Shown here piece by piece: positions 1-29,939 of a DNA stretch of 30,822 nt (its first letter is position 1; every line of letters begins with the position of its first letter). The notes below the pieces were generated by a model. That model was not told the origin of the DNA and made no database searches. It was given only the letters and a program-made list of their open reading frames with translations. Source of the stretch: a virus; the IMG/VR virus record IMGVR_UViG_3300025438_000086, positions 1 to 30,822 of that record; one strand, 5' to 3'. The position numbers and the translations under genes are program-made.

Positions 1-2
1 AA

Positions 3-152
3 GACGGATCAGGTAGCCATGACGCCCACATTAATTTGAGTGGAAACAATACATCAATAACATTAACACAAGATAGTAGTACAGATCAAAACTACTATTT
101 GGAACAAAACTGTGTATCTGCTAGTTGTTCAGCTACAGTCACACAGAATTAA
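3..152 (+). CDS. C-terminal end of a curlin-repeat-like protein (5' partial)
   Basis: The reading frame is open from base 3 to a TAA at 150-152 and the start lies left of the window. The 49 visible residues are rich in Asn, Ser, Thr and Gln. They contain alternating beta-type stretches (INLSGNNTSITLTQD, then a cysteine-containing stretch, then SATVTQN) that resemble the strand-turn-strand repeat of curlin (CsgA/CsgB), where each repeat carries spaced Gln and Asn. Two cysteines (NCVSASCS) could form a disulfide outside the cytoplasm. The next gene starts 9 bases downstream behind a GGAGA ribosome site, so it is probably co-transcribed with the membrane genes that follow. What I see is one to two repeat-like units. 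The curlin assignment is an inference from that pattern. Other beta-solenoid or tail-fibre-like ends could look similar. Confidence 0.55.
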   Translation, partial: DGSGSHDAHINLSGNNTSITLTQDSSTDQNYYLEQNCVSASCSATVTQN

Positions 153-161
153 GGAGAAACT

Positions 162-533
162 ATGGAAATCAAAAAACTTATCACATGGGTACCAATATTA
201 GCTGCTGTTTTAGGTACGCTATATACAGGTATCAACACAATCATAAAACTAAACAACACAATTGAACAACACACTCTACAATTAAGAGAAATGACAAATA
301 CGGTAGCAGCTATTGATGAAAGATTTACAATAGAAGTAAAGAATTTAAATAGAGCATATACAGAAGGAAGAGAAGAATTTTTCCGAGAAATGACAAGTAC
401 GAAATCAGAAATATCTAGTGCTAGAGCAAAAGTAGAGGCATTAAATGACAGTTATTACAAAATGTCAAATACTGTTGAAGATTTAAAATACGATTTAAAA
501 GACTTTAAACGAGAAGTCACTGGAGACTACTAA
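162..533 (+). CDS. Membrane-anchored coiled-coil protein, N-terminal TM (i-spanin-like topology)
   Basis: This 123-residue protein has one hydrophobic segment near the N terminus (about residues 7-27, preceded by KK), predicting an inner-membrane anchor with the rest in the periplasm. Residues about 30-120 are polar, heptad-like and without proline, which suggests a long coiled coil. AAGGAGAAAC upstream is a good ribosome site. The topology matches the inner-membrane subunit of two-component spanins (Rz-type), which span the periplasm in the last step of lysis, but no family signature was recognised. A structural partner of the neighbouring exported protein or of the cyclase two genes downstream is equally possible. 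The gene ends one base before a decoy ATG (535) of the next gene. Confidence 0.75.
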   Translation: MEIKKLITWVPILAAVLGTLYTGINTIIKLNNTIEQHTLQLREMTNTVAAIDERFTIEVKNLNRAYTEGREEFFREMTSTKSEISSARAKVEALNDSYYKMSNTVEDLKYDLKDFKREVTGDY

Positions 534-536
534 CAT

Positions 537-542
537 GGAGGT
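537..542 (+). promoter_or_regulatory. Ribosome binding site deciding the start at 550
   Basis: GGAGGT lies 7 bases upstream of ATG 550. The longer in-frame ATG at 535 overlaps this element and has no good Shine-Dalgarno sequence of its own, so 550 is the better start. It also gives a cleaner signal peptide. Confidence 0.7.
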
Positions 543-549
543 ACTTCGG

Positions 550-963
550 ATGGCACCAAATAGATTTACATATCTGTTATTAGCGTTGCTTATTTTATTT
601 GCTATTTCAATAAGACCTGCTGACGCAAGAAACGATTACTTATCAAATGACAATCATTGTCAAGGACCTACTTTAGAACCTTACATGGAATATTCTAAAC
701 AAGATAATACAGGTACAGGTACATCTGGTAGTGGATATGAAGATGATAGAGGAACAATAGGTGTAAGATTAAGAATACCATTGACTACCACTTGTTCAAA
801 AGAATATAGAAAAGTGTTTAATGAAAACGCATTAATAAGACAACAATTAGAAATGTTAAAAATGTGTTCTCGTTATAAAAATTTAGAATTACCCGACCAG
901 TTTGCTGAAGTGAGAGAGAAGTGTGATGGTATAAAAAGAAAACCAGAGGCAGATGATAAGTAA
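550..963 (+). CDS. Exported protein with conserved-looking cysteines, unknown function
   Basis: From ATG 550 the product has 137 residues and begins with a classic signal peptide: a short basic start, a hydrophobic core (about residues 7-21) and a signal-peptidase-I-like end at PADA before RND. There is no lipobox. The mature part holds four cysteines (in NHCQG, TTCSK, MCSRY and EKCDG), a Gly/Thr/Ser-rich linker, and a strand-like GVRLRIPL segment of the kind seen in outer-membrane or periplasmic beta proteins. The C-terminal third looks helical and charged. I do not recognise the family. Its place between an N-anchored coiled coil and the CHASE2 cyclase suggests a periplasmic or outer-membrane role. 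The stop overlaps the cyclase start by 11 bases, implying coupled translation. Confidence 0.8.
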   Translation: MAPNRFTYLLLALLILFAISIRPADARNDYLSNDNHCQGPTLEPYMEYSKQDNTGTGTSGSGYEDDRGTIGVRLRIPLTTTCSKEYRKVFNENALIRQQLEMLKMCSRYKNLELPDQFAEVREKCDGIKRKPEADDK

Positions 964-2800
964 AATATTCACGCACTGGACAATTGCTTTTATAACTTTA
1001 TTTGTTCTTACATTTATAGGTTTTAAAGACCCACAAGTAAAAGAGATATTAAGACTAAAAGGGTTTGACTTACTACTTCAATCAGAACAAAAAGAGATTT
1101 CACAAAATATAGCAATAGTATCTATTGATGAAAAGGCCATAGAGAAGTATGGACAATGGCCTTGGAAAAGAGATGTACTTGCTAATGTAATAGTGCAATT
1201 AAGAGAACAAGGCGCTGGTGTTATAGTATTACCTATACTGTTTAGTGAGCCAGATAGACTTGGTGGTGATGACGCATTGACAAGTGTACTAGAACATGGT
1301 ATAATAATATCACAAACAGGAACAAATCAAATCAATAAAAACTCTGTACCTAGAGGCGTTGCCAAAATCAATGACCCACTACCTTTCTTATTTGAATGGG
1401 GTGGAATGTTAGGACCAATAGAGAAGTTTCATAACGCTAGTGGTGTTGGTGTAGCAAATACAATACCAGAAGTAGATGGAGTAGTTAGAAGAATACCTTT
1501 ACTTATGAAAATAGGTGAAGACATTTATCCAGCTATGGCAATAGAAGTTATTAGAGTTGCTGTAGGCGCACCTAGTTATCAAGTTAAGTCAGGTGACGCT
1601 GGTATCATAGCATTAAGAGTGCCAGGTTTCAATAAGATAGAAACAGATGCGAATAGTAGAATATGGTTAAGATGGAACAAAAGTTATCCTACAATATCAA
1701 TAGCAGATTTAGATACTAACGAAATTACTTTAGAGGGTAAGACAGTTATCATAGGTATGAACGCTGAAGGATTAAGTGGTATTATAGCAACACCAGTGGG
1801 TGAAAGATACGCATACGAACTTACAGCGTCAACATTAGATACAGTATTAGATGGAAAGAACATAAAGAGAATAGATATTAGTTTTCTAGCTGAACTAGCT
1901 ATATCTTTCGTATTAGGTTTAGTAATTATATTGATGGCAAGATTTGCGCCATATTGGGCGATTGGTTTAAAACTATTATCTTGGTATGTAATAGCTGTAT
2001 GGTTAAGTTATTACTTCTTTACAAAACACTTAATGCTTGTAGATGTAAGTTGGATTATAATTGTATTTACGATAGTAGGATTTCATAGCATATTCAATAG
2101 ATTTATTTTAGAGTTTAAATTAAAGCAACAAATACGAAAACAGTTTGAGAAATATTTAGATCCAAGACAAGTTGCTATACTTGTAAAGAATCCTGAGAAA
2201 TTAAAACTTGGTGGTGTTAGAAAACAGATGTCGTATATATTCATAGACATTGTAGGATTCACACCTATATCTGAATACTATAAAAACAAAGACGACCCAG
2301 AAGGATTAGTTGAATTAATAAACGAATTTCTAAATGAGATTAGTATGATAATATTAAACAATGGTGGAATGATAGATAAATTTATGGGAGATTGTGTAAT
2401 GGGAATATTTGGTGCTCCTTTAGATATGGACAACCACGCAGAGATGGCTGTTAAGTCTGCTAAAGAGATAGAAGAAAAAGTTAAAGAACTAAAAACAATT
2501 TACAAAGAACGAGGATTACCAGACATTAATGTTGGAACAGGTGTTAACACAGGAATAGCAATTGTTGGTAATATGGGTTCTAAAACAAGACTTGACTATT
2601 CAGTTGTTGGTGACGCTGTTAATTTAGCGGCAAGATTAGAAGCAACGGCTGGAAGACACGATCATATAGACAACAAGACTATATGGTCATCTTATACACA
2701 AGAACAATTACCAGATACATTTAAGACAAAAAGTATTGGTACAATCAAAGTTAAAGGAAAGGAAGAACTAATTAAGATTTTTACATTTCAATCAACATAG
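953..2800 (+). CDS. CHASE2-sensor class III adenylyl cyclase
   Basis: This 615-residue membrane protein should make cAMP from ATP under control of a periplasmic sensor. An N-terminal TM (about 8-24) is followed by a CHASE2 domain (about 30-305) with the typical IVSIDEKAI, GQWPWKRD and LFSEPDR blocks. Three TM segments (about 308-382) and a linker lead to the catalytic domain (about 425-605). The catalytic set looks complete: metal-binding D432 (FIDIVGFT) and D480 (KFMGD), adenine-selecting K476 and S550, and transition-state N557 and R561 (GDAVNLAARLE). K plus S/T at the selecting positions favours ATP over GTP. There is no frameshift or truncation. CHASE2 cyclases are common in bacteria but surprising among phage genes. 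The ligand is unknown. Domain calls rest on motifs read by eye. Confidence 0.95.
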   Translation: MISKIFTHWTIAFITLFVLTFIGFKDPQVKEILRLKGFDLLLQSEQKEISQNIAIVSIDEKAIEKYGQWPWKRDVLANVIVQLREQGAGVIVLPILFSEPDRLGGDDALTSVLEHGIIISQTGTNQINKNSVPRGVAKINDPLPFLFEWGGMLGPIEKFHNASGVGVANTIPEVDGVVRRIPLLMKIGEDIYPAMAIEVIRVAVGAPSYQVKSGDAGIIALRVPGFNKIETDANSRIWLRWNKSYPTISIADLDTNEITLEGKTVIIGMNAEGLSGIIATPVGERYAYELTASTLDTVLDGKNIKRIDISFLAELAISFVLGLVIILMARFAPYWAIGLKLLSWYVIAVWLSYYFFTKHLMLVDVSWIIIVFTIVGFHSIFNRFILEFKLKQQIRKQFEKYLDPRQVAILVKNPEKLKLGGVRKQMSYIFIDIVGFTPISEYYKNKDDPEGLVELINEFLNEISMIILNNGGMIDKFMGDCVMGIFGAPLDMDNHAEMAVKSAKEIEEKVKELKTIYKERGLPDINVGTGVNTGIAIVGNMGSKTRLDYSVVGDAVNLAARLEATAGRHDHIDNKTIWSSYTQEQLPDTFKTKSIGTIKVKGKEELIKIFTFQST

Positions 2801-3157: not shown

Positions 3158-3586
3158 ATGGCAGATACAACAGAAATTAAAGTAGATATAGAATCATTAA
3201 GAAAAGATATTGAGAATGTAAACAATATTAATGGTAGAATAGATACTGCCATTGATAAGTTAACAGATGTATCTTCATCTATTAAATCTATGTTAGCTGT
3301 ACACGAAGAAAAAATTACAAGACAAGAAAAGATAGACGAAGTTATTTTTGATAAACTCAAAGATAGAGCAGATGAAATATCTGATGTTTATAGAGAATTA
3401 AAGAGAGATATAGAAACAAGCGAGAAAAGACTACTCATTGAAATCAAAGGTTTAAAGATAGATATAGGTGGTAGAGTTGGCATGCTAGAGCGATATAAAT
3501 GGCTTATAATGGGTGGTGCGATAGTCCTAGGGTGGATACTATCAAAGAACTTTATGCCAATAGTACATATGATGGCCTCAAATTAG
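3158..3586 (+). CDS. Coiled-coil protein with C-terminal TM (XhlA-like layout)
   Basis: This 142-residue protein is charged and heptad-rich over about residues 5-110, then has the motif LERYKWLIMGGAIVLGWILS, a basic/aromatic junction running into one hydrophobic segment (about 113-132), and a short tail. Coil followed by a C-terminal membrane segment is the layout of XhlA-like phage proteins, which sit in the membrane next to lysis genes. It is the mirror image of the 162-533 product, whose anchor is N-terminal. AACAGGAACAAAC before the ATG supplies a modest ribosome site. Upstream, 3012-3157 holds no gene that I can support. Function is inferred from layout only; a scaffold for the neighbouring cyclase is another option. 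Confidence 0.8.
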   Translation: MADTTEIKVDIESLRKDIENVNNINGRIDTAIDKLTDVSSSIKSMLAVHEEKITRQEKIDEVIFDKLKDRADEISDVYRELKRDIETSEKRLLIEIKGLKIDIGGRVGMLERYKWLIMGGAIVLGWILSKNFMPIVHMMASN

Positions 3587-8795: not shown

Positions 8796-9066
8796 AACAA
8801 TTAAAGGTTATACTACACAATCGGTTAATGTAAATGACCTAGCATACGGACATAGTGTTATAGATGCATTAGGTTATGAAAAGCTTGTAGAAAGAATTGA
8901 GAAAGATGGTATGGTATGGCCATTGATAGTAAATGACAATTTAATTAAGTACGGAAACAAAAGACTACTATATGCCAGAGTATATGGATATGATTTAGTT
9001 GATTGTGTTTTTGAAACTAATATAAGTAGTTTAGATAAACTAGGTGATATGACAAGGATCAAATGA
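8773..9066 (+). CDS. ParB/sulfiredoxin-fold small protein
   Basis: From ATG 8773 (a TTG six bases earlier is possible) the product has 97 residues. The segment about 18-80 follows the N-terminal ParB pattern: a SVNVNDL strand, a helix with LVERIEKDG, then WPLIV, and a GNKRLLYARVYGYDLVDC block corresponding to the GxRRLxAA-G motif that in ParB-family proteins binds CTP or forms the nuclease-like core. There is no helix-turn-helix domain, so it is not a partition protein. Isolated ParB-fold proteins in phages are reported as nucleases, methylase partners or NTP-binding regulators; nothing here decides between these. It overlaps the RuvC-like gene by 23 bases and gmd by 4. Confidence 0.6.
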   Translation: MKILKANKTIKGYTTQSVNVNDLAYGHSVIDALGYEKLVERIEKDGMVWPLIVNDNLIKYGNKRLLYARVYGYDLVDCVFETNISSLDKLGDMTRIK

Positions 9067-10064
9067 AAAAGGCGATTATAACAGGAGTGACAGGACAAGA
9101 CGGTGGTTATCTAGCGAAACTACTACTTGATAAAGGATACAAGGTATACGGCGCTCAGAGGCGTAATACAGGTAATAGATATTGGCGTTTAGATGAACTA
9201 GGTATTACAGACAAGATTGAGTTTGTGGATATAGATTTAGGCGAACCATACAATATAGAGAAAGTTATTGAAAAAGTACAACCAGATGAATTTTATAATC
9301 TGGCAGCACAATCATTTGTAGGTTTATCATTTGAACAACCACAAGTCACTACTATAACAAACTCTCTAGGTGTACTAAACATATTAGAAGTAATAAGAAA
9401 TAAGTTTCCTAAAATAAAATTCTATCAAGCTTCAACATCAGAGATGTTTGGTAAGGTACAAGAAACACCACAAAAAGAAACAACAAGATTTCACCCTCGT
9501 AGTCCATACGGAGTTGCTAAAGCATATTCACATTACTTAACACAAAATTATAGAGAGAGTTATGGTCTCTTTGCTTGTAGTGGTATTTTATTTAACCACG
9601 AAAGTCCAATGAGAGGTGAAGAATTTGTCACTAGAAAAATTACAAAAGGTTTAGTAGAATATACAAAGAATGGTAAAGTATTAGAATTAGGTAATATAGA
9701 ATCATATAGAGATTGGGGTCACGCTGAAGATTATGTTGAAGCGATGTGGTTAATGCTACAACAAGATGAACCAGAAGATTTTGTTATATCAACAGGTAAG
9801 ACAATTCAAATAAAAGATTTTATAGTAAGATGTTTAGATGAACTACAAATAGCTTATGAATTTAATGGACATGAAGTAATAGATGTACATACTAGAGAAC
9901 ATATAATTAAAACAAATCCTAAATTTTTTAGACCAGCAGAAGTAGATTTACTTGTTGGTGATAGTACAAAAGCAAAAGAAAAGTTATTGTGGCGACCTAA
10001 ACATACACTAGAAACATTAGTTAGAGATATGATAAAAGAAGATTTGAGAAGATGGAAAAGTTAA
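9063..10064 (+). CDS. gmd: GDP-mannose 4,6-dehydratase
   Basis: The enzyme converts GDP-mannose to GDP-4-keto-6-deoxymannose, the precursor of GDP-fucose, GDP-rhamnose and GDP-perosamine. The 333-residue protein is a short-chain dehydrogenase of the extended type: NAD(P) loop GVTGQDG (8-14), the RR dinucleotide at about 33-34, then catalytic T125, E127 (STSEMFG) and Y149-x3-K153 (SPYGVAKAY). The NHESPMRGEEFVTRKI block is characteristic of GMD. It opens the glycan cassette and supplies the only nucleotide-sugar step seen in it, so the later steps must use host enzymes or the 4-keto sugar itself. AAGGATC upstream serves as ribosome site. It overlaps both neighbours. Confidence 0.93.
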   Translation: MKKAIITGVTGQDGGYLAKLLLDKGYKVYGAQRRNTGNRYWRLDELGITDKIEFVDIDLGEPYNIEKVIEKVQPDEFYNLAAQSFVGLSFEQPQVTTITNSLGVLNILEVIRNKFPKIKFYQASTSEMFGKVQETPQKETTRFHPRSPYGVAKAYSHYLTQNYRESYGLFACSGILFNHESPMRGEEFVTRKITKGLVEYTKNGKVLELGNIESYRDWGHAEDYVEAMWLMLQQDEPEDFVISTGKTIQIKDFIVRCLDELQIAYEFNGHEVIDVHTREHIIKTNPKFFRPAEVDLLVGDSTKAKEKLLWRPKHTLETLVRDMIKEDLRRWKS

Positions 10065-10792
10065 TCTGGACAGACGAAGATAAATTCTTCATCACTACAT
10101 TTAATAAAAGATTGTATGATGATTACGCATATAAGTTTTTACAAACATATGCTGAAACAAAACAAACAATCAAAATGATTTGTTATGTAGAAGAAGATTA
10201 TCAATATCCTAATTACGCTGGTATAACTTATGTAAATATACTAAAAGAGATGCCAGAACTAGTTGCGTTTAAAGAAAGACATAAAGACAAAGTATGGAAT
10301 GATGACAGTGACTTCTTACAAAACGCAGTAAGATTTTCACATAAAGTATTCGCACAATACCATGCAAGTAAACTAGGTAAAAAGTTTATGTGGTTAGACG
10401 CAGATAATATCTTTATGAAAGAGATACCAAATAATTTTATGGATACTTTTATTCCAGATGATAAGTTTATTACTTTTTATGGTAGAGATCATTATACTGA
10501 ATGTGGTGTTATAGGATTTAATTGTAAAGACGAAGATAGTAAACAATTCTTTGATTTATATTTAAGTCATTATACAGAAGACAAAATTTGGAACATGGTA
10601 AATAAAACTGATTGTCATGCTTTAGACAATACTAGAAACATGATTAAACCAAAAGAAAGAAACAAAGCTGATGGCCATGGGGGTCATATCATAGCTAGAG
10701 ATAAAGAAATTAACCCTTACATAGATCACAAAAAGGGTAAAAGAAAATACAAGGATAATAGTCCAGAATGGGTGAAACAAACAAATGATTAA
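10052..10792 (+). CDS. Putative glycosyltransferase, GT-A fold
   Basis: This 246-residue protein has a metal-binding DxD motif in KFMWLDADNIFMKEIP (about residues 111-126), the hallmark of GT-A nucleotide-sugar transferases, inside a pattern of short strands and helices. A later HYTECGVIGF stretch resembles the acceptor side of phage and capsule glycosyltransferases, and DGHGGHIIARD carries histidines that could bind metal. No signal peptide or membrane segment is seen, so it acts in the cytoplasm. The start overlaps gmd by 13 bases. Donor and acceptor sugars cannot be told from sequence. Confidence is good for the class and low for specificity. Confidence 0.75.
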   Translation: MEKLIWTDEDKFFITTFNKRLYDDYAYKFLQTYAETKQTIKMICYVEEDYQYPNYAGITYVNILKEMPELVAFKERHKDKVWNDDSDFLQNAVRFSHKVFAQYHASKLGKKFMWLDADNIFMKEIPNNFMDTFIPDDKFITFYGRDHYTECGVIGFNCKDEDSKQFFDLYLSHYTEDKIWNMVNKTDCHALDNTRNMIKPKERNKADGHGGHIIARDKEINPYIDHKKGKRKYKDNSPEWVKQTND

Positions 10793-11459
10793 TATTTTTA
10801 TAGGATACGATAGAAACGAAAAGATTGCGTACCATGTTCTATCACAAAGTATATTACGAAACGCAACAAGACCAATTAGAATAACACCACTCTATCAACC
10901 TAATATTAAATATGAATTTAGTAGAGAACGAAGTAAGATAGAATCAACTGAGTTTTCTTTCAGTAGATTTATTGTACCTAAACTTATGGACTATTCAGGT
11001 TGGGCATTGTTTATGGATTGTGATATGTTAATGAAAGCTGATATATCAGAACTATGGGCGTTAAGGGACGATAGATATGCGGTACAAGTAGCTAAACATG
11101 ATTATGTACCAAAAGAAAAGACAAAATTTTTAGGACAAGAACAAACAATATATCCTAGAAAGAATTGGTCTAGTTTTATGTTGATGAATTGTAGAAAGTG
11201 TACAACACTAACCAGTGACTTTGTAAATACATCAACAGGATCACAGCTACATCAATTTAAATGGATAGATGATGATAACTTAATAGGTGATATACCATTA
11301 GAATGGAATTGGTTAGTTGGTGAGTACGATAAAAAACCTGATGTAAAAAACTTACACTATACAAAAGGTGGCCCATATTTTAAACATTATAAAGATTGTG
11401 ATTATGCTGAAGATTGGTACGAAGAATATAACAATACTGTAAAGGTTGACATAGAATAA
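10785..11459 (+). CDS. Glycosyltransferase, GT8-like
   Basis: This 224-residue protein starts with INIFIGYDRNEKIAYHVLSQS, the first strand and helix common in GT8-type and LPS-type transferases. It carries the DxD motif in WALFMDCDMLMKADI (about residues 74-88) and a C-terminal NLHYTKGGPYF block in which histidine and glycine usually close the metal and donor site. It is probably a cytoplasmic, retaining nucleotide-sugar transferase. It overlaps its left neighbour by 8 bases and its right neighbour by 1. The donor is unknown. Similar genes occur in phages and in alphaproteobacterial surface-polysaccharide loci, which fits either capture from a host or long maintenance in the phage line. Confidence 0.82.
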   Translation: MINIFIGYDRNEKIAYHVLSQSILRNATRPIRITPLYQPNIKYEFSRERSKIESTEFSFSRFIVPKLMDYSGWALFMDCDMLMKADISELWALRDDRYAVQVAKHDYVPKEKTKFLGQEQTIYPRKNWSSFMLMNCRKCTTLTSDFVNTSTGSQLHQFKWIDDDNLIGDIPLEWNWLVGEYDKKPDVKNLHYTKGGPYFKHYKDCDYAEDWYEEYNNTVKVDIE

Positions 11460-12484
11460 TGGGTAGAAAGTATATAATAGACGAAACTGGACAATGGGAA
11501 CTGGAAACTGTTATGACTCCTCAACAAGCTAAAAGATATCAAGCTAGACAAAGAACTTTAACTGTTTGGTTAAAAACAACAAGTGCTGGTCCTAAGAGAG
11601 ACCTATTACAAGCGTTTGGTAAAGGTGCTGAGAAACATGATGTTAAAGTTAACTATTGTATGGAAGATCATACTGAAGTAGCACCAACAGATTATGATGT
11701 AGTCTTTGCTTTTAAATCAGATGGTATCAGCTCTCCAACACATAATTTAAGAGAAAAAGCCTCTGGAAGAAATACTAGTAAGCAAGTATTTTTCTTTGAT
11801 AGTAATGTTTTAAAATACTATGAAAAGATGACAAGATATTATAGAATACCATATAGGTCAATACACCCACAGCACGCAGACTATATGACACCAGAACCTC
11901 TTACATTTAAAAGAAAACCACAAGTGTTAAAAGATATGGGATTAGAATTAAAACCTTTAAGAACTGAAGGTAATCATATATTACTTTGTTTGAATAGAGG
12001 GTTTGGTGGATTCTCATCTTTTGGTAAAGGTTGTTATGAATGGGCTAAAGAAACTGTAGAAGAATTAAGAAAGCATACACAAAGACCAATAATAATTAGA
12101 TCACATAATCATGCTAAAGAAACATTAGAACTACAAGAAGACAGAAAGAATTTAGATTGGATATTAGAAAACCATAAAGACATAACTCATACAGCTTTAG
12201 GTAAAACTGATTTGTTAGATGATATGAAAAATGCTTGGGCAGTAGTATGTTATACCTCTACATCAGCTGCTGTTGCTTTGATTGAAGGTATACCTATGTT
12301 TTCTACACACGAGGGTTGTTTTGCTAGTAATTGGAGCTCTGGTAAGTTAGAAGATATAGAAAATCCTAAAGAGGTTAATAGACTACAATTTTTACATTAC
12401 TATATTAATTGCCATTGGACACAGGAAGAAGTAGAGAGTGGAATGTTTTGGAACAAATTTCAAAAATTCTATATAAAAAAATGA
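11459..12484 (+). CDS. GT-B-like glycosyltransferase, paralogue 1
   Basis: This 341-residue protein has two alpha/beta halves. The C-terminal half contains IIIRSHNHAK followed by NAWAVVCYTSTSAAVALIEG (about 258-277) and IPMFST, a motif also found in capsule and CDP-glycerol/Kdo-type transferases, where the Ser/Thr-Ala-Glu-Gly-IP segment holds the donor phosphate. The N-terminal half has VFFFDSNVLKYYEKMTRYYR, a motif shared with the next gene. Three more genes in this cassette (12481, 14443, 17662) carry the same C-terminal motif, so the four look like an expanded family. No DxD, signal peptide or TM is seen. The specific sugar is unknown. Confidence 0.75.
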   Translation: MGRKYIIDETGQWELETVMTPQQAKRYQARQRTLTVWLKTTSAGPKRDLLQAFGKGAEKHDVKVNYCMEDHTEVAPTDYDVVFAFKSDGISSPTHNLREKASGRNTSKQVFFFDSNVLKYYEKMTRYYRIPYRSIHPQHADYMTPEPLTFKRKPQVLKDMGLELKPLRTEGNHILLCLNRGFGGFSSFGKGCYEWAKETVEELRKHTQRPIIIRSHNHAKETLELQEDRKNLDWILENHKDITHTALGKTDLLDDMKNAWAVVCYTSTSAAVALIEGIPMFSTHEGCFASNWSSGKLEDIENPKEVNRLQFLHYYINCHWTQEEVESGMFWNKFQKFYIKK

Positions 12485-13422
12485 TAATCGGATTTGAAAC
12501 AGGTAAGGGATTTAACGATAGAGTTATACATGGCTTTGTAAATAGAGTAGATAACTGTGTCTTTCAAACATTTGAAAAAAAGCATGTACAAAAGCAATAC
12601 AAAGATGACATGATTGTACATAAAAATCCATTACCAAAAGATGTAGATCATAGATGGCAAGCGTTAGAAGAATTTAATAATCCACAATTACCTACAAGTG
12701 CATATGCTTTTTGGGGATTTTTAAGAAGTACACACAAGATATATCAAAAAGCAATAAAAGAGAAGATAGATTTTTACTTCTTTGATCAAGCATACTTTTA
12801 TCATAAGATACACGGAGCTAAAAAGTCTAGCCATGAGTTATTTAGAAATCCATATATTAGAGTTTGTAAGAACGAATTTAATAAAGAAACAATAGATGAT
12901 ATTAGAGAAACAGGTTTATTTAAATTAAAAAGACAAGGTTTAGAAGACTTTGAATTACACCCATGGAAAAAAGATGGCAAGAAAGTTTATATTATACCAC
13001 CATCGTTTCATATGTGTGAGTTTTTAGGGTTGACACACGCTGATGTTTTAAAAGATATGGTAGATCAAGTGAAAGCTAATACAGATAGAGAAATAGTTAT
13101 TAGGTATAAGAAACCAAATGGTCAGTATAATCCAAGACCAGTAGAAATAGATGCACAAGACGCTTGGGCTGTTGTATCTTTTCAATCAAATGCTGTTATT
13201 AGATTTATAATGCAGGGTGTTCCATCATTTACATATCTACCAAAACACTCTGTTGCAGTACCATTATCTTTACAAGACTTAACTAAAATAGATACACCAA
13301 TATATCCTGACAATAGATATGAATGGTTGTGTAATTTAGCAAATAATCAATTCCAGGAAAAAGATGTTTACTCTGGTAATGTATTAACTTATTTAGATAG
13401 GGACCCAAAAAAATGGACATAG
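12481..13422 (+). CDS. GT-B-like glycosyltransferase, paralogue 2
   Basis: The start ATG 12481 overlaps the stop of the previous gene (ATGA) and gives 313 residues; a longer frame from 12409 would run through the neighbour and is less likely. FYFFDQAYFYHKIHG near residues 98-112 corresponds to the FFFDSN block of paralogue 1. Near 228-250, DAWAVVSFQSNAVIRFIMQG plus VPSFTY corresponds to the donor-binding motif, although the usual Glu-Gly is replaced by Gln-Gly. EIVIRYKKPNG precedes it as in the others. It is probably a cytoplasmic transferase with a different acceptor. The Gln for Glu change may alter donor binding or activity. Confidence 0.7.
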   Translation: MIIGFETGKGFNDRVIHGFVNRVDNCVFQTFEKKHVQKQYKDDMIVHKNPLPKDVDHRWQALEEFNNPQLPTSAYAFWGFLRSTHKIYQKAIKEKIDFYFFDQAYFYHKIHGAKKSSHELFRNPYIRVCKNEFNKETIDDIRETGLFKLKRQGLEDFELHPWKKDGKKVYIIPPSFHMCEFLGLTHADVLKDMVDQVKANTDREIVIRYKKPNGQYNPRPVEIDAQDAWAVVSFQSNAVIRFIMQGVPSFTYLPKHSVAVPLSLQDLTKIDTPIYPDNRYEWLCNLANNQFQEKDVYSGNVLTYLDRDPKKWT

Positions 13423-13913
13423 AATTTGGTGGTGGAGAAACACCTCGTAAAAAAGATTATAGACAAGTAGATATAAGAAAGATTAGAGAAGATGATATTG
13501 TATGTGCTGCTTGGGAAGTAGAGAAACACATAGACCCAAACACAGTAGAGAACATTTACTCACGCCATTTCTTTGAACACTTAACACACGCACAAGCAGT
13601 AAAGACTTTAGATGCATGGTACAATATATGTAAACCAGGCGCAGAGATAACTATGTTAGTACCTAATATGAACTTACACTTATGGCAATGGAATAATTGG
13701 GATAAGTTAGATGAGAAACAAAAAGACCATTGTCGTGCTGGATTTTGGGGTTGGCAAAGAGAAGGTGATGAAAGTGCTTGGGATTTACATAAATCAGGTT
13801 ATGATTTTCCTAAACTAAAAGAACTAGTTGAACAACATAAATTTAAAAATATAAACAAGGTTATGTCAGATGGACCAACAGATAAACACTTGGCAGTAAA
13901 GTTTTACAAATGA
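13413..13913 (+). CDS. SAM-dependent methyltransferase-like protein (COG4627 type)
   Basis: This 166-residue protein begins with IEFGGGETPRKKDYRQVDIR, a degenerate SAM-binding loop (GGG in place of GxGxG) followed by an acidic strand end. NIYSRHFFEHLTHAQAVKTL and CKPGAEITMLVPN match the post-motif region of small predicted methyltransferases often found beside polysaccharide genes. The N terminus is very short before motif I, so the fold lacks the first helices of larger family members. It probably methylates a sugar or an intermediate of the cassette, but substrate and activity are inference. It overlaps the previous gene by 10 bases and the next by 4. Confidence 0.75.
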   Translation: MDIEFGGGETPRKKDYRQVDIRKIREDDIVCAAWEVEKHIDPNTVENIYSRHFFEHLTHAQAVKTLDAWYNICKPGAEITMLVPNMNLHLWQWNNWDKLDEKQKDHCRAGFWGWQREGDESAWDLHKSGYDFPKLKELVEQHKFKNINKVMSDGPTDKHLAVKFYK

Positions 13914-14446
13914 CAGTACCAGAACATTTAGGTGGACATCTTAATAGAACAAATACAGATGGACCACTATTACAATATATAAAAGAAAGATTTAAAACAA
14001 CATCTATGCTAGATATAGGTTGTGGACCAGGTGGTATGAGAGAAGTTGCCAATGGTATGGGTATAGATTGGTATGGTGTAGATGGCGATAAAACTGTTAT
14101 AGAGAATACTGATTACTCATTAGTACATGACTTTACACTAGGAGAAGCAACATTAGATAAGACTTTTGATTTAGTATGGTGTACAGAATTTTTAGAGCAT
14201 GTAGAAGAAAAGTATGTGCCTAACTATATGCCATTGTTTGAAAAGGGTACTATGGCTGTTGTGACTGCGGCACCTCCAGGTTGGCCAGGTCATCATCATG
14301 TTAATTGTAGAGATCAAAGTTATTGGATAGATGTATTTAAAGACTATGGATTAAGATATAACGAAGAACTTACAAATGAATTTAAGAGTTTATCTCAAAT
14401 GAGAAAGAACTTTTTTAAAAGAGCTGGTATGGTATTTTTAAAATGA
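13910..14446 (+). CDS. SAM-dependent methyltransferase, class I
   Basis: This 178-residue protein has a clear SAM-binding motif I, MLDIGCGPGGMREVA (about residues 33-47), an acidic post-I residue in WYGVDGDK, and motif-IV-like FDLVWCTEFLEHVEE (about 84-98). GHHHVNCRDQSYWIDVFKDYG near the C terminus resembles the substrate side of sugar O-methyltransferases. It is soluble. It overlaps the preceding methyltransferase-like gene and the following glycosyltransferase gene by 4 bases each, so the three are translated together. Two adjacent but unlike methyltransferases suggest modification at two positions or on two sugars. The substrate cannot be read from the sequence. Confidence 0.85.
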   Translation: MTVPEHLGGHLNRTNTDGPLLQYIKERFKTTSMLDIGCGPGGMREVANGMGIDWYGVDGDKTVIENTDYSLVHDFTLGEATLDKTFDLVWCTEFLEHVEEKYVPNYMPLFEKGTMAVVTAAPPGWPGHHHVNCRDQSYWIDVFKDYGLRYNEELTNEFKSLSQMRKNFFKRAGMVFLK

Positions 14447-15381
14447 TAGTTGGTATAGAAGGTAGTTTTAGAACAGAAATGGGTTGGGTATTTCCTACTC
14501 ACAAAGATTTTAAATTAGTATCCTTTGATGATGCTAAAAGACTAGACATGAAAGATATTGACGCATTTATTCAAACAAATGTGTTAGGTATATTTAAAAA
14601 CAAAATGACAGATCAGCATGAGTTTATGGATAGTACAGGTAAACCTAGAATAGTTATTGAACAAGCTGTCTTTAGAAAAAACATAGACTTTGATAAACCA
14701 GAAACTAATTATTACAAAGTAGGATTAAATCATTTTACATATAACAAGGGTATATTCTTTAATGAAAATAGTCCTAGTGATAGATGGGAAAGAATACAAA
14801 AAGAACAAGACATACAAATTAAGCCATGGAAGAATAATGATTATGATGATTCACAATACATTTTATTGCTATTACAAAATCCAATAGATACAAGTTTAAA
14901 TCCTTTGATTGAAAGAGGTGAGAAGTATGACGATTGGATTATTAAAACAATTAGACAAATTAGAAATATATCAAGTAAAAAGATTAGAGTTAGATTACAC
15001 CCTAGATTTTTAGATAGATTTAATAAAGAAAAACTTGTGGAAGAAAATGTAGAGATTAGTAATAACTATGCTGGTTGGAATAAATCAAATGGTGGCCAAA
15101 GTTTATATGATGATTTTAGTAAAGCTTGGGCATGTGTGACATTTTCTAGTAATGCTGCAACAGAAGCTGTGTGTGAAGGAATACCAGTTATCAATTTAGA
15201 TAACTCTAGTTTTTCTTGGCCAGTATCTTACCACAATTTAGATGTTCTAAATAATCTTAGTTTAGAATGTGACTTTGATAGAACACAATGGTTAAATGAT
15301 TGTGCTTATACACAATGGACATTAGAAGAATTAAATAAAGGTATAGTACATAAAAGATTATTAGATGGCGATAGAACTTAA
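14443..15381 (+). CDS. GT-B-like glycosyltransferase, paralogue 3
   Basis: This 312-residue protein carries the cassette's shared donor motif: KKIRVRLHPRF, then KAWACVTFSSNAATEAVCEG and IPVINLDNSS (about 185-260), here with the full Ala-Glu-x-x-x-Glu-Gly-IP pattern. A TQWTLEELNKGI block near the end matches the TQEEVESGM end of paralogue 1 and FTLQEIEDGV of paralogue 4. That shared ending supports common descent rather than chance. The N-terminal half differs and would set acceptor choice. No membrane segment is present. It overlaps the methyltransferase gene upstream by 4 bases and the sulfotransferase gene downstream by 17. Confidence 0.75.
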   Translation: MIVGIEGSFRTEMGWVFPTHKDFKLVSFDDAKRLDMKDIDAFIQTNVLGIFKNKMTDQHEFMDSTGKPRIVIEQAVFRKNIDFDKPETNYYKVGLNHFTYNKGIFFNENSPSDRWERIQKEQDIQIKPWKNNDYDDSQYILLLLQNPIDTSLNPLIERGEKYDDWIIKTIRQIRNISSKKIRVRLHPRFLDRFNKEKLVEENVEISNNYAGWNKSNGGQSLYDDFSKAWACVTFSSNAATEAVCEGIPVINLDNSSFSWPVSYHNLDVLNNLSLECDFDRTQWLNDCAYTQWTLEELNKGIVHKRLLDGDRT

Positions 15382-15973
15382 AAATTCATTATTCATACAC
15401 AATCCAAAGTGTGGTGGAAGAACTGTAAAACAAATGCTTAAGAAGTATGTAAGTAATTGTAAAGTATTAGGTGATGACATTTATGATAGTCACGCAACAC
15501 CAGACACAGGTAAACAAGTATTTGGTTTCATAAGACACCCAGCTACATTTGTACATAGTTTATGGACACATAGAAGTAAAAAGAAAGCTCATGGTAGTGA
15601 TTGGAATTGGCACCCAGATATTAGATTAGAACAAGAATGTAAATCACAAGATTACAATACCTTTGTAGAAAACATATTAGATAAAAAGAATATGGTATGG
15701 GATTATTATCAACATTATCTTGGCAAGTATCCTAATGTTCAATATTGTAAGATGGAACAACTACCAGATAGTTTAATCCAGGTATTAAAATTAAACAATG
15801 AAGACTTTGATGAAGAAGCTATTAGAAAAAACATTTATGTACACGGTGCCAATAACAAACAACTTGGTAAACCTATTAGTGTAAATGAAAGTATGACATA
15901 TAATCAACTTAAAAAATTAGTACAAGTATCAGAAAATGAACTATGTAGGAGATTTGATTACCATGCGTTTTGA
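15365..15973 (+). CDS. Sulfotransferase (PAPS-dependent type)
   Basis: This 202-residue protein opens with LFIHNPKCGGRTVKQMLK (about 9-26), the 5'-phosphosulfate loop of sulfotransferases, which normally reads PKxGGTS. Here Arg-Thr follows the glycines. The 3'-phosphate motif is GFIRHPATFVHSLW (about 54-67) with R57. The length matches small bacterial and phage carbohydrate sulfotransferases. It should transfer sulfate from PAPS to a sugar hydroxyl, so the host would have to supply PAPS. It lies between a glycosyltransferase and a dioxygenase, overlapping both. No signal peptide is seen, so modification is cytoplasmic. The donor assignment rests on family knowledge; the acceptor is unknown. 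Confidence 0.82.
   Translation: MAIELKNSLFIHNPKCGGRTVKQMLKKYVSNCKVLGDDIYDSHATPDTGKQVFGFIRHPATFVHSLWTHRSKKKAHGSDWNWHPDIRLEQECKSQDYNTFVENILDKKNMVWDYYQHYLGKYPNVQYCKMEQLPDSLIQVLKLNNEDFDEEAIRKNIYVHGANNKQLGKPISVNESMTYNQLKKLVQVSENELCRRFDYHAF
15946..15951 (+). promoter_or_regulatory. Ribosome binding site deciding the start at 15963
   Basis: TAGGAG lies 11 bases before ATG 15963. An upstream in-frame ATG at 15936 lacks such a site and would place this element inside the coding region, so 15963 is preferred. Confidence 0.6.
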
Positions 15974-16982
15974 TAATCCTATACATGACCACGGTTTTGT
16001 ATTTCCTGATATTGCTGATTTTCCAGATGTAATAAAAGAAGATAGATATATTGATAATGGTAGACAGGAAGCTGTGACTACTATGAAAGAAGGATTTAAA
16101 TACCAAGATTTAAAACTATTTGAAGAAGGCTATCAATGGTATATGTCAAAGAAACCTGACCCTAAATTATTTCAAAAGTTAAATGCTATGTTTCAATTTT
16201 ATAATAATTTTGAGTTAAGTAGAATAGGCAATGGCTTACCAACAAATGAAATATACGAAGATTTATTTGAAAATGGTATATCATATAGACATGCTAATAT
16301 AAAAGAACTACAAGATATATTAAAAGGTGAGATTACAAAATTACTTGATCAACCTGATTGGAACCCACCACCAGGAAAGTTTGATAGAGCAACTCAATTA
16401 GGTCCAGAGATAGTTAGATATGTAAATGATAAATTTAATACTATGGGTATATTACAAGCTGCCACAAAATACAATAGTTTCAAACCACTACAAGTTAAGA
16501 ATGTAGTATTACATATTGCTAAACCTACTGACCAAAACTATAAACAATTCTTATATGATTGTACAACTATCACAAAGACGACTAACTTACATATAGACCC
16601 TAAAGAAAATGTAATGAAAGCTATGATGTATCTAAATGCTATTACAGAAGACGATGGTCCATTTAGTTATGTAGAAAAATCTAATAGATGGGTACATGAT
16701 AAACTACAAAATGTATTTGGTAGAGCTATATCAACTGGTAGTTATTGTCATACACCAGAATCAAGAGCAGTTGTTTTTCAATTACCAAAACAATTAAGAG
16801 TATCGCATAACTTTGGTAGATGTTTATTAGATGGTACTAAAGAGCAAGAAAGAATATTAGAACAAGAGAAAACTTTTACTAGTGACAAAGGCAATCTATG
16901 TATCTTTGATCCTGCTGGTATGCACAGAGGAGGGATTTGTAAATCAGGTACTAGAATTGCTTTACAAATATTAATGAAATGA
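15963..16982 (+). CDS. PhyH-type Fe(II)/2-oxoglutarate dioxygenase
   Basis: The 339-residue product has the facial triad of non-haem iron dioxygenases: H210-x-D212 in TTNLHIDPKENVMKAMMYLN and H321 in FDPAGMHRGG, plus R331 in SGTRIALQ for 2-oxoglutarate. The MMYLNAITEDDGPFSYVEKS block is typical of the phytanoyl-CoA dioxygenase (PhyH) family, whose bacterial members hydroxylate small molecules, lipids or sugars. The N-terminal 180 residues are not recognised and could bind the substrate. It is cytoplasmic. It starts 11 bases before the sulfotransferase stop and ends overlapping an FkbM methyltransferase by 4 bases. Hydroxylation of a glycan or lipid carrier before sulfation or methylation is a plausible but unproven role. 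Confidence 0.85.
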   Translation: MRFDNPIHDHGFVFPDIADFPDVIKEDRYIDNGRQEAVTTMKEGFKYQDLKLFEEGYQWYMSKKPDPKLFQKLNAMFQFYNNFELSRIGNGLPTNEIYEDLFENGISYRHANIKELQDILKGEITKLLDQPDWNPPPGKFDRATQLGPEIVRYVNDKFNTMGILQAATKYNSFKPLQVKNVVLHIAKPTDQNYKQFLYDCTTITKTTNLHIDPKENVMKAMMYLNAITEDDGPFSYVEKSNRWVHDKLQNVFGRAISTGSYCHTPESRAVVFQLPKQLRVSHNFGRCLLDGTKEQERILEQEKTFTSDKGNLCIFDPAGMHRGGICKSGTRIALQILMK

Positions 16983-17665
16983 TTTTAAACGATAAAGTAT
17001 TACAAAAAAGAGTATTCAAACAACATATATTAGACTTACATTTAAAAGAGTTTATGATAGGACAAACTACACCTTATCTTAATAAATTTAAAAATACATT
17101 AGACATAGGTGCGGCAACTGGTATGTATGCTAGTCACTTTGCTGAACACTCAAAATCAGTAATATGTTTTGAGGCTGTAAAACCTGTGTATGAACAATTA
17201 GAAAAGATAAAACAAAAACATAATAATGTTATTACACATAACACAGCTGTTAGCAACTTTGAAGGTGTATCTGCTTTTTATGTAGATGACAAAAGATTAT
17301 CTAATTCTAGTTTTCAAAATTTAGTAAATGGTCAAAGAATAGAAGTAGATACAGTCACAATAGATAGTCTTAATCTAAATGATGTAGGATTTATCAAAGT
17401 AGATGTAGAAGGTGTAGAGTTAGATGTATTGGTTGGTGCCGCTGATACTATACTAGAATATAAACCAACTTGTATGGTTGAAGTATATGATAAGTTTAAC
17501 AAGTATGCAGTAGAAACAACATTTGAGTTTTTTTTCGTAAGAAATTATAGATGTTTCTATAACCATAGAGGACAAGGATTAAAACCTGTAAGAACTATTG
17601 AAGAAGGTATAGAAGCTACAAAGATACCAGAAATAACAGATGGTGATTTTTTATTTACAATATGA
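16979..17665 (+). CDS. FkbM-family methyltransferase
   Basis: This 228-residue protein carries motif I LDIGAATGMYASHFAE (about 41-56), motif II CFEAVKP, and the FkbM signature VDTVTIDSLNLNDVGFIKVD followed by VEGVELDVLVGA (about 122-155), where D and E lie near the SAM and acceptor. FkbM-type enzymes O-methylate sugars and polyketides and are common in glycan loci. It is the third methyltransferase of the cassette and unlike the two at 13413 and 13910. It is coupled to both neighbours by 4-base overlaps (ATGA). The likely acceptor is a sugar added by one of the nearby transferases. Confidence 0.9.
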   Translation: MILNDKVLQKRVFKQHILDLHLKEFMIGQTTPYLNKFKNTLDIGAATGMYASHFAEHSKSVICFEAVKPVYEQLEKIKQKHNNVITHNTAVSNFEGVSAFYVDDKRLSNSSFQNLVNGQRIEVDTVTIDSLNLNDVGFIKVDVEGVELDVLVGAADTILEYKPTCMVEVYDKFNKYAVETTFEFFFVRNYRCFYNHRGQGLKPVRTIEEGIEATKIPEITDGDFLFTI

Positions 17666-18474
17666 TTATAACTCATAAAATTGCTTGGGACAGTTGTCTA
17701 TCACACAAGATATGGCCTGTGATAGAAAAAGGTTGGAAAGATACACCAATGAAACCTATACATTTTTTTTGGGGTTTGGCTGGAAATAATATGAAACAGA
17801 TACAAGAGGTAATTGAAAAAGGTGAAGAATGGTGGTATGTAGATGTAGGTTATATTACAGAACAAATTACGAGATACCCAATACCAAGTATTAATGATTA
17901 TGATAAAACTTACTTTAGAATAGTAAAAGGTGGTATCCACATCTCTGGTGGAAATCCTAGAGATGGGTCACGCCATAGATATTTGCTACATCAAGGTATA
18001 GATGCAGAGTTTAAAGGTTGGAATCAAGGTGAATGCAATCATATATTACTAACACCATCGTCACAAACACTTACTATCTACAACAATCAAATGGGACAAG
18101 ATGATTGGATTAAAGAAGTTGGTGAAGAAATAAGAATATACACAGATAGACTTATTAGAATGAGAAACAAACCAAGACCTAACAATGAATGGTGGGGAAC
18201 AGATATAAAAGAATCCCTAAAAGACTGTCATTGTTTAGTGACTAGTATGAGTTTGGCAGCAGTTGATGCTGTGTTAAACAAAGTGCCAGTGGTGACACAC
18301 AGTAATAATGTATGTTATCCTTTATCAGGTAATATTGCGAACATAGAAAATAGAACTATGAAAAGTAGAGAAGATATGACAGTATGGTTAAGAACAGTAT
18401 CAAACAATCAATTTACTCTACAAGAAATAGAAGATGGTGTAGCGTTTGACATACTAAAGGAACAGTATGCTTAA
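17662..18474 (+). CDS. GT-B-like glycosyltransferase, paralogue 4 (diverged)
   Basis: This 270-residue protein is the shortest and most diverged of the four related proteins. It has IYTDRLIRMRNKPRP, then LKDCHCLVTSMSLAAVDAVL and NKVPVVTH (about 185-213) in place of the Trp-Ala-Val-Val...Glu-Gly-IP motif, and the shared FTLQEIEDGV ending. The glutamate before Gly-IP is replaced by Asn-Lys, so donor binding may differ or be weak. The N-terminal half contains HFFWGLAGNN and GGIHISGGNPRDGSRHRY, not matched in the others. It could be a transferase of changed specificity or a non-catalytic relative. It overlaps its neighbours by 4 and 8 bases. Confidence 0.65.
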   Translation: MIITHKIAWDSCLSHKIWPVIEKGWKDTPMKPIHFFWGLAGNNMKQIQEVIEKGEEWWYVDVGYITEQITRYPIPSINDYDKTYFRIVKGGIHISGGNPRDGSRHRYLLHQGIDAEFKGWNQGECNHILLTPSSQTLTIYNNQMGQDDWIKEVGEEIRIYTDRLIRMRNKPRPNNEWWGTDIKESLKDCHCLVTSMSLAAVDAVLNKVPVVTHSNNVCYPLSGNIANIENRTMKSREDMTVWLRTVSNNQFTLQEIEDGVAFDILKEQYA

Positions 18475-19168
18475 TTTCGCTTGTGTATTTTATGGCGACA
18501 AGTATTGTGTACCACCAAATGCGCCATGGTCTTATGTAAGAAATCTATACAATATGGTCAAAAGAAACTTGACTGTACCACATAGATTTATCTGTTTTAC
18601 CGATAACATAATCATACATAAACGAAAAGAATTTAAAGACACAAATATAGAATTTAAACCATTTAAAAGGCATGACTTCCATGGTTGGTTCAATAAACTC
18701 CAACTCTTCAGTCCAGATAGTCAATTAGAGGGTGATACTCTATATATGGATTTAGATATAGTAATTATGAAGAACATAGATGAACTGGCTACGATAGGGG
18801 AATCAAAGAACTTTGTAGGTATGAATGATTTTAACCCTACATCTGGTATATTCAATTCTAGTATAATGAGATTTAATAACAAATATCATAGTATCATATG
18901 GGAAGAGTATATAAAAAGACGAACAGAATTTACTAAATCTCACGGCGACCAAGAAATCATAACAAAACTAATCAAACCTCATAAAGACACAATCTCTTTT
19001 CCTGACGAATGGACACAATCATATAAATGGTTAAATCGTAAAGGTGAAAGATTCGGTAGGGCCTCATTTACATACGAACAAGACCCAAATGCTAAGGTTT
19101 GTGTGTTCCATGGCTCTCCAAATCCACACGAATCTACACAAGAATGGGTAAAAACCCACTGGAAATAG
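18467..19168 (+). CDS. Glycosyltransferase, GT-A fold with DxD
   Basis: This 233-residue protein has an N-terminal FACVFYGDKYCVPPNAPWSY strand-loop, HGWFNKLQLFSP (acceptor or metal helix, about 72-83), the DxD in LYMDLDIVIMKNID (about 92-105) and a C-terminal KVCVFHGSPNPHE block that closes the metal site in GT8- and GT32-like enzymes. This arrangement is frequent in phage and alphaproteobacterial genomes. It is cytoplasmic. It is the last gene of the glycan cassette; no coupled gene follows, and about 275 bases of mostly regulatory sequence come next. Donor and acceptor are unknown. Confidence 0.82.
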   Translation: MLNFACVFYGDKYCVPPNAPWSYVRNLYNMVKRNLTVPHRFICFTDNIIIHKRKEFKDTNIEFKPFKRHDFHGWFNKLQLFSPDSQLEGDTLYMDLDIVIMKNIDELATIGESKNFVGMNDFNPTSGIFNSSIMRFNNKYHSIIWEEYIKRRTEFTKSHGDQEIITKLIKPHKDTISFPDEWTQSYKWLNRKGERFGRASFTYEQDPNAKVCVFHGSPNPHESTQEWVKTHWK

Positions 19169-26397: not shown

Positions 26398-26553
26398 ATG
26401 AAATCACAAAAGATATTGAAAGTAGATAGAACTGAATACCAAGAAACTGCTGATGTTATTAGAAGTGATCAAGTACCAGCTGCTGTCATAGTAGAATATT
26501 TTAGTGACAAACATTTTTACAAATGGTACAAAAAGAAATATTTAAATGATTGA
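26398..26553 (+). CDS. Small hypothetical protein
   Basis: ATG 26398 gives 51 residues; a longer frame from 26323 would overlap the TM-protein gene completely and is rejected. The protein reads as one small domain: KILKVDRTEYQETADVIRSD, QVPAAVIVEYFSD and KHFYKWYKKKYLND, with a basic aromatic end. No family was recognised. The start is 2 bases after the previous stop with only a weak AAG ribosome site. It overlaps the PP-loop gene by 8 bases. Confidence 0.55.
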   Translation: MKSQKILKVDRTEYQETADVIRSDQVPAAVIVEYFSDKHFYKWYKKKYLND

Positions 26554-27361
26554 TAAGTTAATACAAGACGAGATAGTACAACAAACTAGCGACAAGGAAG
26601 TCGCTGTTTTGCTTTCTGGTGGTGTTGATAGTTTATCAGTTGCATTCGCAGCAAATAGATTAGGTAAAAAGATAACAGCATATACATTTCATTTAGAAGA
26701 CAACCCATCATATGACGCTATAAAGGCCGCTGAAGTGGCAAAACTATTTGGTTGGGACTGTAATATCATAGTAGTACCTACATACAATATACAAAACGAT
26801 TTTCAAAGATTAGTAAAAGAAGTAAGATGTAAAAAGAAAACACATTTTGAATGTTGTTTTCCTTTCTTATATGTGTACCCAGAGATCAAAGAAGAAGTTG
26901 TATTGAGTGGGTGGGCTGCTGATGGATATTATGGAATAAGCAAGAAAGCAATGATACATTATGGTCCAGGCAAACCAAAAGAAAAATTTGATGAGTTTAG
27001 AGATAACTATTTTGACATAAACAATCAAGCAGGTTATCTATGGCATGAATTGATTGCTAGAAACAATAAGAAACAATTGATTACACCATACCTATCATTA
27101 ATAGTAAAAGATTTTTTCTACAACATGACTTGGGAAGAGTTAAATAAACCATTTCAAAAACACCATGTAGTGACAGCATTTGATGAATTTAAAAGATTTA
27201 AATTTAAGAAACATATCAACTTACAGTTAGGTGCTGGTGTGGACAAATTATTTGAAACCCTAATTGATGATAAGTTTATTAACTTTAAATTCAGAAAGAG
27301 AGTTATGGATATTTGTAGAGATTGGTCAAAGATGTCAGATGACATTGGGGTATTACAGTAA
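26546..27361 (+). CDS. Asparagine-synthetase-like PP-loop ATPase without glutaminase domain
   Basis: This 271-residue protein starts with a P-loop of the PP family, VAVLLSGGVDSLSVAFA (19-35), which binds ATP pyrophosphate for adenylation. LSGWAADGYYGI (120-131) corresponds to the SGxGADExFGGY block of the asparagine synthetase C-terminal domain. The N-terminal glutaminase domain of AsnB is absent, so it would use free ammonia or another amine, or a different substrate. HFECCFPFL carries two cysteines near the site. QueC- or TilS-type enzymes share only the first motif. The product is unknown; it could be asparagine, an amidated small molecule or a modified protein. It is joined to RNase H by TAATG. 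Confidence 0.75.
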   Translation: MIDKLIQDEIVQQTSDKEVAVLLSGGVDSLSVAFAANRLGKKITAYTFHLEDNPSYDAIKAAEVAKLFGWDCNIIVVPTYNIQNDFQRLVKEVRCKKKTHFECCFPFLYVYPEIKEEVVLSGWAADGYYGISKKAMIHYGPGKPKEKFDEFRDNYFDINNQAGYLWHELIARNNKKQLITPYLSLIVKDFFYNMTWEELNKPFQKHHVVTAFDEFKRFKFKKHINLQLGAGVDKLFETLIDDKFINFKFRKRVMDICRDWSKMSDDIGVLQ

Positions 27362-29626: not shown

Positions 29627-29938
29627 ATGTCAGAAGTGAGAAGACGAAGCAAAGAGATAGACCATTTTGTTAAACAAAATATAGGAGAAGCTCTAATCCA
29701 ACTACGAGAACTTGTAAAGCCATCAAATAGGTCAGGTACAAGTAGAGTATATTACACTGGTAATTGGGTAAATGACATCTACAACAACTACACAGACAAA
29801 CAAGCTCAAAAGATATTCAATAGTGCTAGACAATATATGGATAGATTAGATTTTGTTCAGGTTAAATTAAGAGATACCTATGAAGACTACAACGAAAAAA
29901 CACTACAAGCCTACGAATATGTTGCGAGGGTTAAATAA
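29627..29938 (+). CDS. Hypothetical phage protein
   Basis: This 103-residue protein, preceded by AAAGAAAG, begins with a charged helix (RRRSKEIDHFVKQNIGEALI) followed by QLRELVKPSNRSGTSRVYYT, an aromatic segment GNWVNDIYNNYTDKQAQKIF and a helix MDRLDFVQVKLRDTYEDY. No signal peptide, membrane segment or known motif is present. It ends one base before the glucosaminidase start and carries that gene's ribosome site (GAGGG) in its final codons. The function is unknown. Confidence 0.68.
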   Translation: MSEVRRRSKEIDHFVKQNIGEALIQLRELVKPSNRSGTSRVYYTGNWVNDIYNNYTDKQAQKIFNSARQYMDRLDFVQVKLRDTYEDYNEKTLQAYEYVARVK

Positions 29939-29939
29939 T

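Follow-up and report, generated by a model that had tools for sequence, protein, structure and literature searches.

The locus at the left end of this virus record poses the question of why a phage should carry a whole membrane receptor for making cAMP, what that receptor would sense and what in the infected cell would read its product. The window, meaning the entire 30,822-base stretch of the IMG/VR virus record analysed here, had been interpreted in a sequence-only reading as encoding a complete CHASE2-sensor adenylyl cyclase with six intact catalytic positions and four transmembrane (TM) segments. The protein is as described: the open reading frame is exact, and both Pfam domains score above their curated cut-offs (CHASE2, 152.3 bits against 26.3; Guanylate_cyc, PF00211, E=8.1e-17, 61.8 bits against 21.9). 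By alignment D432, K476, D480, S550, N557 and R561 all stand at the residue numbers claimed, and they include the metal-binding Asp pair (D432, D480) and the transition-state Asn and Arg (N557, R561). Coordinates are collected in Table 1.

Table 1. Features of the cyclase locus and its flanks; positions are those of the window and residues those of the cyclase.
Feature	Position	Strand	Basis or remark
Curlin-repeat protein, C-terminal end, truncated at the left edge of the record; upstream cassette neighbour	1..152	+	Matches HTVC008M gp018 C-terminus
Small protein, N-terminal hydrophobic segment and coiled coil, between curlin and cyclase	162..533	+	
Small protein, signal-peptide-like N-terminus, overlaps cyclase start	535..963	+	
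CHASE2-class III adenylyl cyclase	953..2800	+	ATG start, 615 aa
TM helix, N-terminal, residues 9-25	977..1027	+	AlphaFold2 helix
CHASE2 sensor domain, residues 17-323	1001..1921	+	Pfam PF05226, E=2.4e-44
Three TM helices, the last extending as signalling helix, residues 310-398	1880..2146	+	AlphaFold2 helices
Changeover between sensor and cyclase histories, approximate, residues ~380-430	2090..2242	+	Sliding identities
Class III cyclase catalytic domain, residues 425-607, exchanged part	2225..2773	+	Pfam, alignments, structure match
DUF7201 coiled-coil protein, C-terminal hydrophobic segment; phage neighbour, outside cassette	3158..3586	+	Pfam, E=1e-15
Phage DNA primase, anchors cyclase in phage DNA	3630..4631	+	PHROG 47, E=8.5e-83; 68% to phage Mosig

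The AlphaFold2 model (38 sequences, mean pLDDT 86) runs from the N-terminal helix through a mixed alpha/beta extracytoplasmic domain and helices 310-331, 334-359 and 366-398 to a cyclase fold, and so agrees with four TM segments, one before and three after the CHASE2 domain. Its cyclase part overlays on Pseudomonas aeruginosa CyaB (3r5g) with a TM score of 0.90 by target length and an rmsd of 1.8 A, and also matches Spirulina platensis CyaC (1wc1). These class IIIb adenylyl cyclases resemble the window cyclase in catalytic fold and residues, although they were solved as catalytic fragments without CHASE2 and have Thr at the adenine-reading position where the window protein has Ser. ATP specificity is predicted because K476/S550 aligns with the K/T pair of CyaB and CyaC, whereas the guanylyl cyclase Cya2 has E/G there; reading Ser for Thr as conservative is a guess. 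The same pair disfavours a guanylyl cyclase, and the window protein should, judging from its residues, make cAMP.

That the gene belongs to a phage, as had been claimed, is confirmed by 294 relatives in IMG/VR and by its orthologues in two cultured phages, HTVC008M and Melnitz. The record carries a T4-like primase, NrdA and NrdB, a RuvC-like resolvase and an exonuclease, and a homologue of its DUF7201 protein adjoins the primase of phage Mosig. A SAR11 host is likely, since the primase and NrdA are nearest to those of Pelagibacter phages (NrdA, 81% to Mosig and 78% to HTVC008M). The cyclase is 59% identical over its whole length to HTVC008M gp019 (YP_007517885.1), already annotated as an adenylate/guanylyl cyclase, and 49% identical to Melnitz gp104. 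CHASE2 is common in Alphaproteobacteria (138/289 genomes), which would lend some credit to host DNA joined by misassembly, the danger named in the sequence-only reading, or to a decaying passenger gene. However, isolate genomes and the 294 IMG/VR stretches carry the gene, its context is identical in three assemblies (the gene itself is identical in L001 and L002, and the surrounding 8.8 kb are 100% identical), dN/dS is low and bacterial homologues are merely 24-35% identical; misassembly is ruled out, and the probability of this explanation as a whole is next to negligible. Mosig has no match to the cyclase and holds a different set of secreted-looking proteins at the corresponding place; the cassette to which the cyclase belongs is therefore an accessory island. 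Elsewhere, the window contains a long island of sugar and surface-modification genes (9063-19168; GDP-mannose dehydratase, glycosyltransferases, methyltransferases, sulfotransferase-like and PhyH-like proteins), an asparagine-synthase/QueC-like ATP pyrophosphatase gene (26546-27361) and a candidate lysin, a glucosaminidase whose N-terminus has a hydrophobic segment (29880-30602).

The window cyclase is the last gene of a phage curli (type VIII secretion)/FecR cassette that has already been published. The pelagiphage curli cassette was described by Zaragoza-Solas et al. 2020 (PMC7029224) and Buchholz et al. 2022 (PMC9004378); Wittmers et al. 2022 (PMC9599517) added FecR and adenylate cyclase to it and argued that it originated in Alphaproteobacteria and has moved among phage families. 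The published cassette, represented by HTVC008M gp019, shares with the window a protein alike over its whole length, the cassette seen in the relatives and the phage group, but of the cassette the window contains just the end of a curlin gene and the cyclase, separated by two additional small genes. Gene and cassette are thus known, and what is added here is the exchange of the cyclase domain and the missing cAMP receiver, neither of which is mentioned in the available portions of the literature on the pelagiphage cassette.

In HTVC008M and Melnitz the operon reads csgF-csgG-curlin-FecR-curlin-cyclase, an order that recurs in viral loci as far as the contigs reach, with few rearranged (L055, for example); podophage-like contigs keep this order as well. 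The left end of the window corresponds to the final 50 codons of the second of the two curlin genes and is 96.7-97.4% identical in DNA to curlin genes in L003 and L005; its Curlin_rpt match is weak and below the cut-off (E=0.0079). This gene would be directly upstream of the cyclase but for the two small genes. Relatives such as L005, L061 and L100 carry csgF, csgG and FecR upstream, and those of the window phage would accordingly sit beyond the left end of its record; in L061, which has the additional gene pair too, FecR and curlin are found upstream. The pair (162-963), of small envelope type, is absent from this place in L003 and L005, where the first 73 bases of the 535-963 gene alone are matched between curlin and cyclase. 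The 162-533 gene is common to L001, L002, L061 and L062; the pair is present in L061 and sits upstream of csgF in L040. The pair is thus mobile and, going by a weak PHROG match (E=0.011), perhaps spanin-like.

Other observations concern the cassette more widely. No CsgG-CHASE2 pair within 10 kb was found in alphaproteobacterial chromosomes among the matches listed. A candidate late promoter, TATAAATA, occurs at chance level, and the search for a riboswitch near the cyclase returned nothing beyond the known Melnitz tmRNA and glutamine riboswitch. In the podophage-like cassettes L118 (622-1190) and L119 (8211-8555) the genes before csgF are ORFs of 93-115 aa that combine a hydrophobic segment with a coiled coil, and Pfam finds no kinase domain in them; Wittmers et al. 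(PMC9599517) report histidine kinases before csgF in those authors' own genomes. The second curlin protein of HTVC008M (L100, 10638-11963) has a PA14 domain that may serve as an adhesive head binding glycans. Five phage curli-cyclase contigs (L081, L082, L083, L118, L119) occur within MAG bins labelled Flavobacteriaceae, Pirellulales and SAR11 family, and those in the Flavobacteriaceae and Pirellulales bins look like mis-binned phage DNA.

Selection has kept the enzyme. D432, K476 and D480 occur in every viral copy (86/86), the full set of six in 83/86, and dN/dS in pairs with usable divergence is mostly 0.03-0.19, for sensor and cyclase alike, a pattern that indicates purifying selection. One of the three exceptions, L068, is cut by a contig end; the others, Melnitz and L083, carry a different cyclase domain, with D for S550 and S for N557. 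Loss of catalytic residues in related phages, named beforehand as a refutation of the sequence-only reading, is therefore seen in part, in these two. Melnitz gp104 (MZ577097.1; PMC9004378) has the same sensor as the window protein (61% identity) and the same cassette order, but its cyclase domain differs from that of the window (34%) and its C-terminal tail resembles the bacterial L084, L091 and L096 proteins. In the Melnitz-type genes (L101, 8998-11046; L083, 2037-4085), where Ser replaces the transition-state Asn and the tail ends in a WxGxxxATxK-like motif, cyclase activity may be reduced.

The two halves of the protein have separate histories. Compared with the window, L003 is 98% identical in the sensor and 66% in the cyclase, while L005 (73% and 94%) and L055 (58% and 88%) show the opposite; L004 and L005 match L061 at 97% in the sensor and at 47-48% in the cyclase. 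In nucleotide comparisons, L003 is 98-100% identical to the window across most of the sensor; the figure falls to 60-67% within the cyclase domain and is 92-97% for the greater part of the DNA beyond base 3500. The comparison with L005 reverses this pattern. The cyclases fall into four types whose mean mutual identity is 34-66%, and these are joined to sensors of several types. Type-1 cyclases form one group on the cyclase tree (support 96) yet require 7 changes, no fewer than 5 of them forced, on the sensor tree, where holding them together is rejected with an AU p=2.6e-7 that is indicative, the group having been named after the identities were seen. An assembly chimera is an unlikely cause of the mosaic, as the difference is limited to the cyclase part between two matching flanks, and more than one data set shows the combinations. 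The cyclase half has been swapped between phages independently of the sensor. Whether selection on the cyclase drove this is nearly an even question: the exchange may be ordinary T4-like mosaicism, for which the highly conserved linker near residues 380-420 would offer a crossover site, and some neighbouring genes vary too. Against such neutral exchange, cyclase-domain identity tracks that of neighbouring genes far less (Spearman 0.08-0.29) than sensor identity tracks that of primase, NrdA and NrdB (0.61-0.71).

What would read the cAMP was sought in the presumed host. The survey covered 60 genomes from the family of G213, a 1.2-Mb alphaproteobacterial genome (31% GC over an 18-kb sample), which we take to be SAR11 by its 441R probe sequence; OM43, the host clade of Melnitz, lies outside the sample. 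CRP and class I cyclases were found in none of the 60, and neither was a chromosomal class III cyclase: the class III cyclases detected, in 2/60, are both CHASE2 cyclases inside phage csgF-csgG-curlin-FecR cassettes, one of them adjoining a terminase gene. Cyclic-nucleotide-binding domains (cNMP_binding) also occur in 2/60, as one FNR-like protein and, in the oversized bin G302, as long ORFs that are not CRP. RecA was recovered from 58/60, so these absences are not due to poor genomes. Furthermore, the domain is absent from the complete phages HTVC008M and Melnitz and from the window, so that the phages yielded no cAMP receptor either, and a literature search on cAMP and CRP in SAR11 gave nothing specific. 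Because the presumed host family and the phages encode no CRP, the receiver is probably something else, and a non-canonical host or phage target would be needed.

The signal side is approached through FecR. Among bacterial CHASE2 cyclases, those of L085, L097 and L099 have FecR immediately upstream, and a further case, L088, falls just below the cut-off; in L099 FecR is fused to an outer-membrane barrel; many bacterial CHASE2 loci have no FecR match nearby. Phage FecR proteins start with signal-peptide-like sequences, and a C-terminal N-x5-Q end, with the spacing of curlin repeats, occurs in 36/36 distinct phage FecR against 3/929 other viral ORFs. In a profile search the tail does not match curlins significantly (best E=1.4), and the phage FecR structure model is too poor to give a fold (pLDDT 46). 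In Sinorhizobium meliloti the CHASE2 cyclases CyaD1, CyaD2 and CyaK raise cAMP, acting downstream of the outer-membrane barrel protein NsrA (PMC13001267); unlike the phage gene they are chromosomal, and their output passes through the CRP-family regulator Clr, for which no counterpart was found in the presumed phage host. The Burkholderia BiofilmReg operon (PMC5192318), linked to biofilm, sets a LysM-FecR gene next to a CHASE2 sensor as the phages do, but there the output is a histidine kinase and the operon is not phage-borne. Since FecR precedes some bacterial CHASE2 cyclases and phage FecR ends in a curlin-like manner, curli or the state of the envelope is suggested as the signal.

The reading we lean towards, at somewhat better than even probability, is a one-piece receptor that reports envelope or curli state, via FecR, as cAMP. 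It would combine a periplasmic CHASE2 sensor and four membrane helices with a cytoplasmic class IIIb adenylyl cyclase working as a homodimer, and would report whether the curli/CsgG system made by the phage is being assembled or engaged during infection. The co-encoded periplasmic FecR would sense the state of curlin or pore and gate the cyclase, so that the state of the envelope would be turned into cAMP inside the cell. A different output had been proposed from the sequence, namely that cAMP would rewire host catabolite or stress regulation through a CRP-type regulator. The cyclase is intact and CRP-cAMP is the standard bacterial route, but the lack of CRP and class I cyclases in the surveyed family, with RecA nearly always present, leaves that proposal unsupported and distinctly unlikely.

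The cyclase might instead time lysis or control an outer-membrane pore, with a CsgG/CsgF signal or envelope damage raising cAMP or draining ATP and so triggering late events, which would extend the pinholin proposal made for Melnitz CsgGF (PMC9004378). Linkage to csgG and csgF fits this idea, as do the small membrane and coiled-coil genes inserted beside the cyclase, but no lysis gene is fixed in the cassette, and the curlin and FecR genes that have been retained would be superfluous for a bare pore; we regard it as unlikely. The repeated replacement of the cytoplasmic half resembles change driven by host factors, as might be expected of a counter-defence product competing, for instance, with the cyclic-nucleotide signals of host defence. 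Such a product would need neither a four-helix periplasmic sensor nor linkage to curli, making this very unlikely.

Pelagiphages prey on one of the most abundant groups of ocean bacteria, and a conserved, apparently intact cyclase in cells where no cAMP receptor is known suggests that a cyclic-nucleotide target is still to be discovered or that the phage brings the entire messenger system with it. The exchange described here shows a receptor enzyme evolving in nature by swapping of its output domain, and the natural sensor/cyclase chimeras, together with the cultured pair HTVC008M/HTCC1062, make the question testable. It is even conceivable, though less likely than not, that the virus installs a complete second-messenger line from envelope to cytoplasm in cells otherwise devoid of cAMP signalling, whose message would be read by a phage or host receptor and whose cyclase half would have been replaced repeatedly under selection from the host cytoplasm.
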